This document shows positions 41,378 through 57,205 of a stretch of 64,000 bases of DNA, in pieces; position 1 is the stretch's first letter; the number at the start of each line of letters is the position of its first letter. This stretch comes from a virus, in IMG/VR virus record IMGVR_UViG_3300042545_000821, positions 36,770 through 100,769 of that record; one strand, 5' to 3'. A program made the translations under genes and the position numbers. Under the pieces are notes generated by a model. That model saw only the letters and a list, made by a program, of their open reading frames with translations, was not told where the DNA came from and searched no databases.

Positions 41378-41394
41378 TTTTGTTTGTGTTGAGT

Positions 41395-52774: not shown

Positions 52775-53028
52775 TGACTATGCAACGCATCGGTCGTTAT
52801 GAATTTAACGACAAAGGCACAGCAGTGTGGGTAGAGACAGATATAGATGTACCAGAGGGGCAAATCATTGTATTTGATCAATTCCCAACAGGTGCTTGGG
52901 CTGACCCTAAGTTCTTATCTAACATACTAGACATAATGAACAAAGCGGTAGATGAAAACAAAGACGATATAAAAGACATTCTTATGGATGTAGAATTAGA
53001 AAAACTTATCTACGATACCAAGAACTAG
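52774..53028 (+). CDS. Small acidic early protein
   Basis: An 84-residue protein with GRYEFNDKGTAVWVETDIDV and a C-terminal acidic helix (NKAVDENKDDIKDILMDVEL). It ends five bases before the tRNA. Function unknown. Confidence 0.62.
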   Translation: MTMQRIGRYEFNDKGTAVWVETDIDVPEGQIIVFDQFPTGAWADPKFLSNILDIMNKAVDENKDDIKDILMDVELEKLIYDTKN

Positions 53029-53033
53029 GTAAG

Positions 53034-53107
53034 GCGCTGTTAGCTCAGTTGGTTAGAGCCCCGAACTCATAATTCGGTCGTCGTAGGTTCAAGTCCTACA
53101 CAGCGCA
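53034..53107 (+). tRNA. tRNA with CAT anticodon (Met, or Ile2)
   Basis: A complete cloverleaf is visible. The acceptor stem is GCGCTGT/ACAGCGC, the D arm is GCTC/GAGC, the anticodon stem is CCGAA/TTCGG with loop CTCATAA (anticodon CAT), and the T arm is GTAGG TTCAAGT CCTAC. CCA is not encoded. CAT can mean Met or, if lysidine-modified, Ile for ATA codons, which are common in this AT-rich phage. It lies between two early genes. Confidence 0.93.
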
Positions 53108-53224
53108 CGACACACTTCAAGAGGAGGGAGTGTCTTTGGTCTGACAAGACCTAAGGTAAAACATGGCCCGTGAGCAACGGGGTATACCTGCTACCTGTCC
53201 TGAGCACGACAAGGATAAACTGCT

Positions 53225-53235
53225 CAACACAAACA
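53225..53235 (+). repeat. CAACACAAACA word, intergenic copy 1
   Basis: A copy of the recurrent word in the leader of the 165-aa gene, 25 bases before its ATG. The same word recurs in several other intergenic sites and in genes, always on the transcribed sense strand (see findings). Candidate RNA- or DNA-binding site. Confidence 0.5.
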
Positions 53236-53259
53236 AACCCGCACACAGAAAGGCAAACC

Positions 53260-53757
53260 ATGGGAGCAAAAACAAACCCTCTCAAAATCAGGCGACTTGA
53301 CCTCCTTGAAACACTTGAGGAACGCTATGCCGCGTTGACAAAACAAAAAGATGAGTATGAAAAGTTAGACAAAGAGTATAACCTCGCAGCTACTAAATAC
53401 GACAAAGATATGAAAGCATACGAAAAGCGAAAGGATGACTTCTTACGCGGCTGTTCAGTAGGTGGAGAAGTTAACTGGTCTGCAAGCAGTCGTAGATGGG
53501 GTCCTGACGAGTATTACTACAGAGTAGTTTCTGAGGTGCATGTTCTCCACAAAGATGTGGTTAAAGCTATTGGGCCTGAACCTGAACGTCCAACAAGCAT
53601 ACCGACTCCTTACTTTCTACGATCACGCATGGGTAGAGGCTATTCACCAGAGCCTTCACTCTATGAGTCTGTTTACCAAGCAATCCAGTTGCTACATATG
53701 TCAGATGATGAGACCGTCGGAGCATCTATGTACCAATTAGCATTAGAGGTACTCTAA
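53260..53757 (+). CDS. Coiled-coil early protein
   Basis: A 165-residue protein. I start it at 53260 (MGAKTNPLKIRRLDLLETLE), after an AGAAAGGC site; the longer reading runs through hairpins and the repeated word. It begins with a charged coiled coil (LEERYAALTKQKDEYEKLDK, KYDKDMKAYEKRKDDFL) and continues with DEYYYRVVSEVHVLHKDVVK. Coupled by TAATG to the next gene. Function unknown. Confidence 0.68.
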   Translation: MGAKTNPLKIRRLDLLETLEERYAALTKQKDEYEKLDKEYNLAATKYDKDMKAYEKRKDDFLRGCSVGGEVNWSASSRRWGPDEYYYRVVSEVHVLHKDVVKAIGPEPERPTSIPTPYFLRSRMGRGYSPEPSLYESVYQAIQLLHMSDDETVGASMYQLALEVL

Positions 53758-54299
53758 TGGAGATCAGCATAGACAGCATGCATACTTACTCAACCTTAAA
53801 CCTTAAACTAAGGTTCAAGAAGTGGGTAATAGTAGGCAAGCACAAGGGAGAAGACAGGCCATTTAGAGTAGACACTCTAGATGTTCACTTCAGTCCCAAT
53901 CAAGACCTAGCATACATACCAGATCGATTGAGCATAACTGGTGTGTGGGCACAGAAAGGCGGATACAAGTGGGGAACACGCGGAAGTTATTTTCCAGGGT
54001 GGTACCACGGAGGCAATGCAGAGTCTTTAACGTTTGAGACTCTACCACCAAGCATCAAGATATTTATTTATGACACAGTCATAAAAGAAACCTTAAGTTT
54101 TGCAGGAAATCTGGCACAACAACTAACAGAACTAACTTGCAACAAGCAGTTTGTACTAAAGCCAGATGCTAATCAAGAAGCTATAGATGGTGGTGGGGCA
54201 TTTCTCCCATCTGTAAATCAAACATCACTAACAACACCATCAAAGTGGGAGAATATGGATGTATCTAGATGGTCTGTAGCACGAAAAGAAATAAAGTAA
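53757..54299 (+). CDS. Unknown early protein
   Basis: A 180-residue protein with YSTLNLKLRFKKWVIVGKHK, FSPNQDLAYIPDRLSITGVW and YFPGWYHGGNAESLTFETLP. The composition is alpha/beta and aromatic-rich. It is coupled to the coiled-coil gene. Function unknown. Confidence 0.65.
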   Translation: MEISIDSMHTYSTLNLKLRFKKWVIVGKHKGEDRPFRVDTLDVHFSPNQDLAYIPDRLSITGVWAQKGGYKWGTRGSYFPGWYHGGNAESLTFETLPPSIKIFIYDTVIKETLSFAGNLAQQLTELTCNKQFVLKPDANQEAIDGGGAFLPSVNQTSLTTPSKWENMDVSRWSVARKEIK

Positions 54300-54760
54300 T
54301 TCCCCCTCCGTTGAATACGACGGGGATACCCAAAGTTCATATGTGATTGGCCGGTGGGGCCTTTATACAGGTCCGGTAACGGAGCATGCTGTACGAGTAT
54401 GCCTTGAGAAACGTAGCGCATATGAACATGCCTGTGGAAGGACCAGGAGTTACACGATAGGTATACTGTTCGACGAACTATGCAACTTATCCTCGTAATT
54501 CTGGAGGGTGCAAATCCCTTCACAGGCGCGTTGGGGCAGAAGCATAATGATTAGCCAATCTGCGTAGGTATCCCATGGGGAAACTATTCCTACTGAGTAA
54601 CTAATCAAAACTATTGAACCAGATCCAACTTCTTGAATCGGTACTGCTGGTGTTGCAGCGCTCCACAAGAGCTAAGTCGGAGACGGATTCGTACAGCATG
54701 ACTGTGCATCCAATGTCAAAGAGAGATTCTAACTACAGGTGCGGTGATGTAGGCGCTTCT
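54300..54760 (+). ncRNA. Large structured RNA candidate B
   Basis: Nearly 500 gene-free bases with many nested pairings. GGGATACC (54323-54330) with GGTATCCC (54567-54574) can enclose two modules: GTTCATATG/CATATGAAC (54335-54343, 54419-54427) and GCCTGTG/CACAGGC (54430-54436, 54521-54527). The second module contains a long arm closed by CCAG/CTGG and a T-arm-like hairpin AGGG TGCAAAT CCCT. TGATTAG/CTAATCA (54548-54554, 54601-54607) crosses the outer helix like a pseudoknot. Small hairpins (GCTG/CAGC, GCTC/GAGC, ACAG/CTGT) fill 54646-54705. Giant phage RNAs such as GOLLD or ROOL are comparable in setting, but identity is unproven. Confidence 0.6.
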
Positions 54761-54764
54761 GTCT

Positions 54765-54775
54765 CAACACAAACA
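54765..54775 (+). repeat. CAACACAAACA word, intergenic copy 2
   Basis: The word lies in the leader of the WhiB-like gene, 25 bases before its ATG and directly after the structured RNA, in the context CTCAACACAAACAAAC, nearly identical to the copy at 53225. Confidence 0.5.
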
Positions 54776-54799
54776 AACTAAATCAACATAGGAGGTTAT

Positions 54800-55093
54800 A
54801 TGCCAGTACCAGCAGCGTTACCTAAACCAATCATGGATAACTGGAAATGGCAAGAGGAAGGCCTGTGTCGCTTTGAAAGCCCTGACCTTTTCTTTTACGA
54901 TGACAATGAGCGTGGAGAAACACGTTCGTCACGAGACCAAGAAGCAGTAGCTGTATGTAATAAATGTCCAGTAATTGCTACCTGTCTTGAACACGCAATC
55001 ACAGTGCCAGAAAGACACGGCATCTGGGGCGGTAAGACACAGAACGAACTAGAGATATTGATTCGTAAGCGGAAACGTTCAGCGAATCGATAG
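54800..55093 (+). CDS. WhiB-family iron-sulfur regulator
   Basis: A 97-residue protein with the four iron-sulfur cysteines Cys23, Cys53, Cys56 and Cys62 (GLCRFESPDLFF, then VCNKCPVIATCLEHA) and the G(V/I)WGG turn (GIWGGKT). A basic C-terminal tail follows (LIRKRKRSANR). WhiB-like proteins exist only in Actinobacteria and their phages and bind the sigma factor. It strongly supports an actinobacterial host and may redirect or repress host transcription. The site is AGGAGG. Confidence 0.95.
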   Translation: MPVPAALPKPIMDNWKWQEEGLCRFESPDLFFYDDNERGETRSSRDQEAVAVCNKCPVIATCLEHAITVPERHGIWGGKTQNELEILIRKRKRSANR

Positions 55094-55496
55094 TAAACAC
55101 GGGAGTGGGATGACCTATGCGTCAGAAAAGTCCCCTCGTTTGCTTGAGGCACGGCAGAACGCAGTAGGTTTATTATTTGACCGCTATATTGCTGTAACTT
55201 AATAGAAAAAGTATTATCACTGTGCGTTATGTGATCTTCTTGTTCAGAGTTATATAAGTAAAACGAAAGTGCACGCTAGCGTAAGCCAAAAAACGTTTTA
55301 AGTATATATACACCTGTCCGAAGATGGACGACAATACCACATAAGAAATTTTGAGGGTCCTAGATGTATATCGATGTGCATCGACGCGTATATGTCCTAT
55401 TCAATAAATAACTGTGTTCTGTTCTCAATCCCTCAAGCCATAGCATGTCAGACTAACGGTGCTATGGCTTGAGGGCTCATAACTATAGGAGGAACA
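55094..55496 (+). other. AT-rich, dyad-rich spacer
   Basis: About 400 bp with no credible ORF. From about 55160 it is strongly AT-rich with several dyads: ACGCTAGCGT (about 55275), AAAACGTTTT (about 55296), GTCC/GGAC (about 55317-55331) and CGATG/CATCG (about 55365-55376). A poor promoter-like TTGACC (55177) with TAATAG (55200) is present. It could be a promoter cluster, operator array or origin. The 16-bp hairpin at 55430 follows. Confidence 0.45.
55430..55475 (+). promoter_or_regulatory. Perfect 16-bp leader hairpin
   Basis: CCCTCAAGCCATAGCA pairs perfectly with TGCTATGGCTTGAGGG, with a 14-base loop. It ends 13 bases before the AGGAGG site of the 63-aa gene. There is no U tract, so it is unlikely to be a terminator. 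It fits the recurring hairpin-before-ribosome-site pattern and could be an RNase III site or an mRNA 5' protector. Confidence 0.75.
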
Positions 55497-55688
55497 ATGG
55501 CTGATCCATTTGAAGAAGCAGAGAAAATAAAGTACATTGAAGAACAATGTGACGCAGCAAAGCAAGTGATTGAAGCAGCATCAGAAGACACAGTGCTGTA
55601 CGAATTAATATCAGAGTGGACTAAAGCAAAGATAACTTCATACGAGATGACTGTTATAGCACGTAATAACTATCTAGACGACGATTGA
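55497..55688 (+). CDS. Small acidic helical protein
   Basis: A 63-residue protein (MADPFEEAEKIKYIEEQCDA...LYELISEWTKAKITSYEMTV). It appears to be helical and acidic. It precedes the tRNA-like element and the ATPase/VWA module and may be a partner of them. Function unknown. Confidence 0.65.
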   Translation: MADPFEEAEKIKYIEEQCDAAKQVIEAASEDTVLYELISEWTKAKITSYEMTVIARNNYLDDD

Positions 55689-55696
55689 CCTTCCCA

Positions 55697-55737
55697 GCGT
55701 GAGTGGCACACATTGAGGTTCGAGTCCTCTACACGCA
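55697..55737 (+). other. tRNA-like minihelix
   Basis: GCGTGAG, then GAGG TTCGAGT CCTC with a canonical T-loop, then TACACGC. Five acceptor pairs (GCGTG/CACGC) and a T arm can form, but the D and anticodon arms are absent. It may be a deletion remnant of a tRNA, or a recognition minihelix. A 9-bp hairpin GGCGACTAC/GTAGTTGCC (55744-55766) follows before the ATPase gene. Confidence 0.55.
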
Positions 55738-55795
55738 CGGCGGGCGACTACATCGGGTAGTTGCCTTAGCTATAAAGAAAGTGGAAGGACAGATT

Positions 55796-57205
55796 ATGAA
55801 AATAGCTGTTTTCGTAGAAACGTATACGCCGACTATGGGAGCTGATCATCGTCAAGTAATGATGATTCCTCATAACGATACAGTACGTGTCTTTACTCGT
55901 TTAAGCGATGGCAATAAAGGTTATGGCAATCGCTGGGATGAATCAGACATCGAAACTGTAGTCAATGCTATGGACGCAAGTGAATCCATCACGTGTATTC
56001 CATCAGGTGTTCGACTCACTGCTAAGGACATTGAGGCGCTTGACCTTAAAGGTTATGCTCCGGTACTAATGACCAAAGCAGTCAACGCACATCTAAAAGC
56101 GCTACCGTTTAATGAAGAGACAGACGCTGCAGAGCGTATCTGTGCTCTTTATCAAGACGTATCTGTTCAGAGTTCTAGCCTCGAAGATCTAATCATTGAC
56201 CTTCGTAGCCAGGCTCCGGCATCACCGTTCCTTCCGCAGTCTGCTCCAACACAAACATCCACGGCCAATAACCTTGATGAACTACCTCGCGTAGCACTCG
56301 CAAGTATCCCCCCAATGGATCGCGCAAAAGCCTATATCAGTCGTGACATCGTAGGTATTCAAGACCTAGAAGTGTACGACAAGGCTCGCGCTAACAAGTT
56401 TGATGTTCTTATCTATGGTCCAACCGGTCCAGGTAAGACATCATCCGTAGTTGCATGGGCTGCATCACGGAAGCTACGTATGGCAACTGTATCTGGTAAC
56501 GCTGCACTCGAACCAAGCCAGCTCATCGGTAAGTATATTCCCGATGGCAAAGGTGGCTTTGTATGGATTGACGGCCCAGTAACAGATGTTGTACGTAATG
56601 GCGGTGTTCTATGTCTTGATGAGGTTAACTTCATCAGCCCTAAAATCTATACCGTCCTGTATTCGTTGCTTGATGACCGCCGTTGTTTAATTCTACTCGA
56701 CCATATGGGCGAGACTGTAGAGGCTCATCCAGACCTCACAATCTTTGCAACCATGAATCCAAACTACATTGGCACTACGCCTTTGAACTTTGCATTCCGC
56801 AATCGCTATGTCGTACAAATCCCTTGGGACTATGACGATAAGGTCGAGGACAAGCTTGTGAAGTCTCAAGCACTCAAGGTTCTAAAGAACCAGTTGCGTG
56901 CTGAAGCTAACAAGGGTGAGTTCGAGACACCAATCTCAACTAACATGCTGATGGAGTTTGAAAAGCTCGTCAAGGTGTTCAGCTTTGAGTTTGCCGTTGA
57001 GAACTTCATTGCTCACTTTGAGCTAGAAGAACAAGACAAGGTGCGACTTGTATTCACTACACATGAATACAATCTGAAGTCTGATTTTGATCTAGTTGAA
57101 GTACTTGATCAAGATAAGGGTGAAGACAGTGAAGGTCTCGGAGAGAAAATTGCAACCGAGGCTGAGAACTGGCTATCATCAAACAACACTCCAACTAATC
57201 CATAA
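55796..57205 (+). CDS. MoxR/CobS-type AAA ATPase
   Basis: A 469-residue protein. I start it at 55796 (MKIAVFVETYTPTMGADHRQ) after a GGAAGGAC site, because the longer GTG reading begins in the tRNA-like element. The N-terminal 190 residues are a variable domain. The AAA core has YGPTGPGKTSS (Walker A, about residue 207), VLCLDEVNF (Walker B, about 271), TIFATMNPNYIGT (sensor 1) and FRNRYVV (Arg finger region). It resembles MoxR/CobS/dynein-type AAA proteins that remodel partner proteins together with VWA proteins, matching the next gene. Confidence 0.9.
   Translation: MKIAVFVETYTPTMGADHRQVMMIPHNDTVRVFTRLSDGNKGYGNRWDESDIETVVNAMDASESITCIPSGVRLTAKDIEALDLKGYAPVLMTKAVNAHLKALPFNEETDAAERICALYQDVSVQSSSLEDLIIDLRSQAPASPFLPQSAPTQTSTANNLDELPRVALASIPPMDRAKAYISRDIVGIQDLEVYDKARANKFDVLIYGPTGPGKTSSVVAWAASRKLRMATVSGNAALEPSQLIGKYIPDGKGGFVWIDGPVTDVVRNGGVLCLDEVNFISPKIYTVLYSLLDDRRCLILLDHMGETVEAHPDLTIFATMNPNYIGTTPLNFAFRNRYVVQIPWDYDDKVEDKLVKSQALKVLKNQLRAEANKGEFETPISTNMLMEFEKLVKVFSFEFAVENFIAHFELEEQDKVRLVFTTHEYNLKSDFDLVEVLDQDKGEDSEGLGEKIATEAENWLSSNNTPTNP

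Follow-up and report, generated by a model that had tools for sequence, protein, structure and literature searches.

A large structured RNA with an exchangeable tRNA-like domain, possibly a modular leader, in uncultured phages

The window analysed here, a 64,000-nucleotide stretch of a 100,769-base IMG/VR virus record, carries a structured, noncoding RNA in which exchangeable modules, one of them tRNA-like, are set on a fixed core of helices (P1, P4, P5 and P6) whose 3' end lies some 20-40 nt ahead of a start codon in all 15 records that carry it. It represents a new and well-supported family of structured RNAs in uncultured phages, and we tentatively read it, with a little less than even confidence, as a modular 5'-leader (intercistronic) RNA of contractile-tailed actinophages whose tRNA-like domain would act in cis on expression. 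The window's phage is most likely a contractile-tailed actinophage: its genes encode a tail sheath, a portal and a terminase as well as the WhiB-like protein, and its AAA protein is 43-47% identical, over about 60% of its length, to the AAA proteins of phages of Gordonia and Brevibacterium. The coordinates of the features are collected in Table 1.

Table 1. Features of the structured RNA and its surroundings, in window positions
Feature	Positions	Strand	Details
Whole structured RNA, P1 to P5, noncoding	54302-54764	+	Covariation in 15 records; loop indels; fold z
P1 hairpin CTCCGT/ACGGGG	54306-54325	+	7 distinct strand pairs; double changes in 6/6 columns
GGGATACC, partner of GGTATCCC (54567-54574)	54323-54330	+	Possible tertiary contact; no covariation
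Optional P3 module, closing stem GTTCATATGTG/CGCATATGAAC	54335-54427	+	Present only in window, L078 and L079; alone in L093
tRNA-like domain (arm P4)	54430-54528	+	Geometry scan, shuffles; same geometry in L080 4537-4617, L081 7358-7430
Acceptor GCCTGTG/CACAGGC	54430-54436/54521-54527	+	7 bp
D-like linker GAAGGA	GG at 54440-54441	+	Inside tRNA-like domain
Long arm of tRNA-like domain	about 54446-54503	+	
T-arm GAGGG [TGCAAAT] CCCTT	54504-54520	+	Acceptor 3' strand directly next, as in tRNA
Discriminator G of tRNA-like domain	54528	+	
P5 5' strand GGGCAGAAGC	54534-54543	+	Partner 54755-54764; 96% paired across 15 records
P6 hairpin	54548-54607	+	P6a 54548-54554/54601-54607; P6b 54564-54568/54589-54593; P6c 54572-54574/54578-54580, loop ATG
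Exchangeable 3' domain inside P5	54612-54754	+	Kept in L009 (=L078), swapped in L008 (=L079)
P5 3' strand GCTTCTGTCT	54755-54764	+	Partner 54534-54543
Tail CAACACAAACAAAC separating RNA from ribosome-binding site	54765-54778	+	After P5 in most relatives
WhiB-like gene	54800-55093	+	PF02467, E = 6e-20; start 35 nt past P5
tRNA-Met (CAT), leader site 1	53034-53108	+	ARAGORN; Rfam RF00005, 69.2 bits
Mini-tRNA-like element, AAA ATPase leader (site 3)	55697-55737	+	GCGTG, AGTGGCACACAT, T-arm loop TTCGAGT, CACGC, A

The RNA lies between the end of an upstream ORF at 54299 and the start of the WhiB-like gene at 54800, about 500 bases that no coding explanation fits. A first, sequence-only reading had described a large structured RNA with a T-arm module at 54300-54760, just before a WhiB-like gene and close to a real tRNA; every string it quoted was found where it had been placed, its bounds were nearly exact (the RNA ends at 54764), covariation and geometry agree with the overall description, Pfam PF02467 confirmed WhiB, and both ARAGORN and Rfam identified a tRNA-Met at 53034-53108. 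The folding z-score was -1.6 for 54300-54760 and -2.85 when the closing helix was covered in full (54302-54766), and the unconstrained minimum-energy fold of this second segment already shows P1, P3, P5 and P6. In the two closest relatives, L078 (also numbered L009) and L079 (L008), the core over 54300-54611 is 93% identical, while the gene upstream of the RNA is 71% identical as protein and mostly 58-78% as DNA. The close copies differ in one loop, with lengths off by 2 and 3 nt, and in scattered substitutions, and two pairs in P6 show compensatory substitutions. A loop that differs by 2 and 3 nt keeps no reading frame, and on this comparison the RNA is conserved as a structure and not as a protein. 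An antisense ORF at 54218-54523 was considered as coding and ruled out, since the loop varies by 2-3 nt and the changes track base pairing.

Homologues were sought with a covariance model (R1) from three copies together with 80 kin loci reached through the neighbouring VWA protein. Clear homologues were found upstream of AAA/VWA genes, and two pattern scans added three more, giving 15 carriers: the window, L078, L079, L080, L081, L083, L085, L086, L087, L088, L105, L108, L188, L196 and L202 (L084 and L109, whose matches were identical, were left out). The RNA was thus strongly conserved in the comparison of related phages that the sequence-only reading had proposed. With a second model (R2), 30 records were searched whole and 14 of them had one good copy each, as had the locus L202; the few, very weak extra matches (E 0.03-0.96) were regarded as chance. 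A search of 50,697 named phages returned no match for the RNA, and none was found within 13-15 kb around the AAA/VWA gene pair that Gordonia phages GMA6, Chidiebere and DalanDe and Brevibacterium phage Cantare have in common with the window. The sole match in a VWA profile search of genome contigs was one distant MAG contig, titled Thiotrichales.

Across the 15 records, P1, P4, P5, P6a and P6b covary, with helix strands placed by hand and then checked for order in every record. Pairing in P1 was 98%, against 53% with the 3' strands shuffled; the corresponding values were 100% and 84% for P4 (8 strand pairs), 86% and 73% for P6a, and 97% and 78% for P6b, controls that, like the slid ones below, do not fully remove shared ancestry. 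P6c alone was weaker (92% vs 73%, equalled in 69 of 1000 shuffles). For the whole of P6 in a MAFFT alignment, 94.6% of cells were paired and both sides had changed in 10 of 16 pairs; 0 of 500 shuffles did as well, and slid controls reached 33-58%. The long-range helix P5, missing from the sequence-only reading, closes the 3' half and was found in all 15 records, with a consensus of GGGCAGAGRC after P4 and GYCTCTGYCC at the 3' end and with changes among records that include AAGC/GCTT, GAGAC/GTCTC, GAGGC/GCCTC and GGGG/CCCC.

A different long-range helix, GGGATACC/GGTATCCC, had been proposed before. Its 8 bp exist, but it was not upheld as the main closing helix and can at most be a tertiary contact: GGTATCCC also sits within the covarying hairpin P6b/P6c, and GGATACC, found on the 5' side in the window, L078 and L079, lies in the 3' domain in L079 and in most sister-group records. 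Of the 15 records, 11 have GGATACC, the complement of GGTATCC in P6, on the 5' or the 3' side or on both, and L083 and L085 have it slightly altered; the pairing may be a real tertiary contact, though one that does not covary. A pseudoknot-like crossing, read as GCAGA/TCTGC, was rejected because GGCAGAAGC belongs to P5 and the TC pairs within P6, which a compensatory change in L008 supports.

In the window, arm P4 holds the tRNA-like domain, whose acceptor-like stem and T-arm-like hairpin had been noticed from the outset. A strict scan of both strands of the 64 kb (7-bp acceptor, 5-bp T-stem, T[TG]C[AG]A loop) returned exactly two sites, the tRNA-Met and the module at 54430-54528, against a mean of 0.02 sites in 100 dinucleotide shuffles. 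What defines a tRNA-like structure is present, a 5-bp T-arm with the T-loop motif and, immediately next to it, a 7-bp acceptor; by this measure the module has true tRNA-like geometry. ARAGORN called only the tRNA-Met; at 54430-54528 it made no tRNA or tmRNA call, and neither it nor RF00005 matched a cloverleaf with D-arm and anticodon arm there. At the same place L080 has GTGCATA...GAGGG[TTCAATT]CCCTC TATGCAC and L081 has GCCAACG...ATAGG[TTCGATT]CCTAT TGTTGGC; their stem letters are unrelated to those of the window, but acceptor (7 bp), T-stem (5 bp), loop (7 nt) and the place of the GG (linker positions 4-5) agree. The T-arm rests on comparison and not on folding energy, because nearest-neighbour energies, in models that leave out T-loop tertiary contacts, favour an extended acceptor without a T-arm by 2.2-2.8 kcal/mol. 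Across 12 T-armed elements, found with no part played by the linker, GG stands at linker positions 4-5 or 5-6 in ten, which 0 of 200,000 linker shuffles reach; a D-loop-like GG is on offer to the T-loop in these ten, and the contact itself is a prediction. In the tRNA-like elements of L110 (3325-3395), L080 (4537-4617) and L081 (7358-7430), the arm on the anticodon side has a pyrimidine-rich loop, and the loop of L081, CTCCTTTCT, resembles the 3' end of 16S rRNA.

It is highly improbable that this domain is a decayed, functionless tRNA gene caught in an ordinary intergenic region. Partial, non-canonical tRNA genes do occur in prokaryote genomes (PMC9897764), but here the domain and the core RNA are far more conserved than the flanking gene, the geometry is kept with unrelated letters, and the covariation seen in the alignments already disfavours decay.

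P4 is tRNA-like in five of the 15 records (window, L078, L079, L080 and L081) and a plain hairpin in the other ten, so that the two forms replace each other on one conserved scaffold. The five tRNA-like arms represent three independent sequence variants, and their carriers group together by VWA identity alone (at least 63%, vs 53-58% for the others). Because most relatives are without it, the tRNA-like arm is not needed for the function of the core. Other modules are exchanged as well. L093 carries the P3 module alone, with its stem re-paired as GCATACATAC/GTATGTGTGC; this lone module (1666-1810) retains the conserved GCCTTGAGAAAC and lies about 25 nt ahead of the start codon of another gene. 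L079 combines a core almost the same as the window's with a 3' domain of the sister-group type. Most sister-group 3' domains form an H-type pseudoknot, GCACAC/GTGTGC crossing CTCGG/CGAGG, for which L188 and L202 have the strands GCGTTG/CAACGC.

In all 15 records the 3' strand of P5 marks the end of the RNA and the start codon that follows is on the same strand; distances were computed for 12, the ATG of a small ORF about 27 nt past P5 was read directly in L188 and L202, and the distance in L196 was taken from its near-identity to these two. In the window, L078-L081 and L086 a WhiB-like gene comes next, in six records another small gene and in three a third small ORF, which argues for a gene-independent leader and not a riboswitch of one gene. 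This position in every relative likewise points to a leader, not to a free-standing giant RNA. Between the RNA and the gene we found no terminator-like sites, and promoter matches were not above chance. The motif CAACACAAACAA(A/C) occurs in the window at 41378, 52102, 53225, 54765, 58921 and 63261 (6 copies vs 0.07 expected), and the copies at 53225 and 54765 end structured leaders.

These data bear on the alternative that the RNA stands free and acts in trans, as a large phage RNA comparable to GOLLD and ROOL (though of another family) that is transcribed with the operon and uses the tRNA-like domain as a peripheral docking module, which we consider unlikely. Its size, the long-range closing helix, the H-type pseudoknot of the sister group, the nearby tRNA and the single good copy per record fit such an RNA, and GOLLD and ROOL are likewise encoded near phage tRNAs (PMC12286853). 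An RNA of 300-465 nt with long-range closing helices is also bigger than a simple translation enhancer needs, which speaks against the leader reading. However, a leader position without a terminator argues weakly against a free RNA, and so does the lack of an Rfam match. At the gathering threshold the sole Rfam match was the tRNA-Met, and E <= 10 over 53000-56000 added only chance matches. The covariance models of GOLLD (cmscan at gathering; E <= 10 on 53000-56000), ROOL, tmRNA, group I introns and the yjdF riboswitch gave no match at gathering or at E <= 10, and therefore the RNA is not GOLLD, ROOL, tmRNA or an intron. The kinship to giant phage RNAs suggested by the sequence-only reading was not borne out, whereas its main proposal stood, as the Rfam search it had recommended returned no intron and no known family for the RNA, and neither a coding match nor an absence of conservation came to light.

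T-armed elements recur in neighbouring leaders. Directly before the AAA gene (site 3), mini-tRNA-like elements are found in the window and seven relatives, namely L078, L079, L080 (5565-5605), L081 (8520-8560), L097 (8500-8543), L099 (2642-2683) and L113 (8419-8461), the window's element being conserved in L078 through L081. They have an acceptor of 5-6 bp and a T-arm, a GG linker except in L080, and no D- or anticodon arm, and are followed by a hairpin and then the ribosome-binding site. In general the mini-tRNAs of these phages are 40-45 nt long and consist of acceptor, GG loop and T-arm only. At site 1, L080 (3294-3337) and L081 (6141-6185) have mini-tRNAs of 44-45 nt that seem to stand where the window has its tRNA-Met; they are followed by the long-range helices GGGTAGGCAAG/CTTGCCTACCC and GGGAGGTAGG/CCTATCTCCC. 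Further examples of about 38-45 nt lie in L106 (3069-3111) and on the minus strand of L089, and in a strict scan of 3.26 Mb of DNA nearly all such elements fell within this phage group. Two other regions of the window drew attention. Directly 3' of the tRNA-Met, 53109-53240 is 94-100% identical in both relatives (the next gene is 50-70% in one), ends in the CAACACAAACAAAC tail also found at 54765, and is probably another structured leader RNA. The intergenic region after WhiB, 55094-55496, has a fold z of -4.7 vs shuffles, is 82-100% conserved and contains the long hairpin CCCTCAAGCCATAGCA...TGCTATGGCTTGAGGG.

The smallest established substrate of RNase P is an acceptor stem stacked on a T-arm, and the mini-tRNAs hold exactly these parts; a C commonly comes after the discriminator base. 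Both kinds of module, tRNA-like and mini-tRNA, might then be processing signals at which host RNase P (and RNase Z) sets mRNA 5' ends, like tRNA punctuation. We think this distinctly unlikely for the present RNA: CCA is not encoded, the sister-group RNAs retain the core without a cleavable tRNA-like arm, and a cut at 54430 would split the RNA in two. Such processing and a role in trans are nonetheless the main rivals of the leader reading. It is improbable that the RNA serves as a decoy, drawing off tRNA-modifying factors or the host's tRNA-attacking defence enzymes; anticodon-free tRNA mimics would fit, and tRNA-targeting defences exist (PMC12851939), but the leader position would be left unexplained.

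For the leader reading, we infer that acceptor and T-arm would form a tRNA elbow, with the GG of the D-like linker docked into the T-loop, and that the leader would act in cis on whichever gene follows, favouring translation. The analogy comes from work in which translation rose 2- to 6.3-fold in vitro with grafted tRNAs or the tRNA-like yjdF aptamer in the mRNA leader, and fell to near background when the GG of yjdF that corresponds to the D-loop was mutated (PMC9142559). The T-loop here, TGCAAAT, is unlike the usual TTC form of tRNA, which counts against this reading. Because full tRNAs or mini-tRNAs also occupy two or more further leaders, this phage group seems to use elbow-bearing leaders repeatedly, and tRNA look-alikes before several genes probably control their expression. 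A broader proposal, possible though well short of evenly balanced, is that tRNA elbows are interchangeable leader parts controlling successive genes in the form of full tRNAs, anticodon-less domains and mini-tRNAs. If so, phage leaders would contain a new class of cis element, the elbow-only mini-tRNA. The recurring mini-tRNAs could rank among the smallest natural tRNA mimics. The conserved pair of GG and T-loop makes it testable whether tRNA elbows drive expression or recruit RNase P.

Several known systems offer parallels. GOLLD and ROOL are likewise large, multi-domain and found in phages near tRNA genes, whereas the present RNA is shorter, has a leader position and a different conserved core, and matches neither covariance model. 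In the Y RNA-like YrlA and in viral 3' tRNA-like structures, a tRNA-like module is fused to other RNA domains; the phage RNA, in contrast, precedes genes and is not at a 3' end, and has no Rfam match. The VWA protein beside it matched only VWA/CobT models in Pfam, and no adjacent Ro60 gene was identified. With the tRNA-like domain of tmRNA it shares the 7-bp acceptor, stemless D-like loop, one long arm and 5-bp T-arm, and a pseudoknot, here in the sister group, but the phage domain is 98 nt long, encloses a single hairpin arm and comes with no tag ORF. The G3-U70 pair of alanine identity in tmRNA is absent, the third acceptor pair being C-G in the window and L081 and G-C in L080. Although much larger, with its P5 and P6 domains, varied downstream genes and no Rfam match, the phage RNA resembles the yjdF riboswitch (PMC9142559) in its tRNA-like fold, its predicted D-loop/T-loop elbow and its place as a leader just before a gene.
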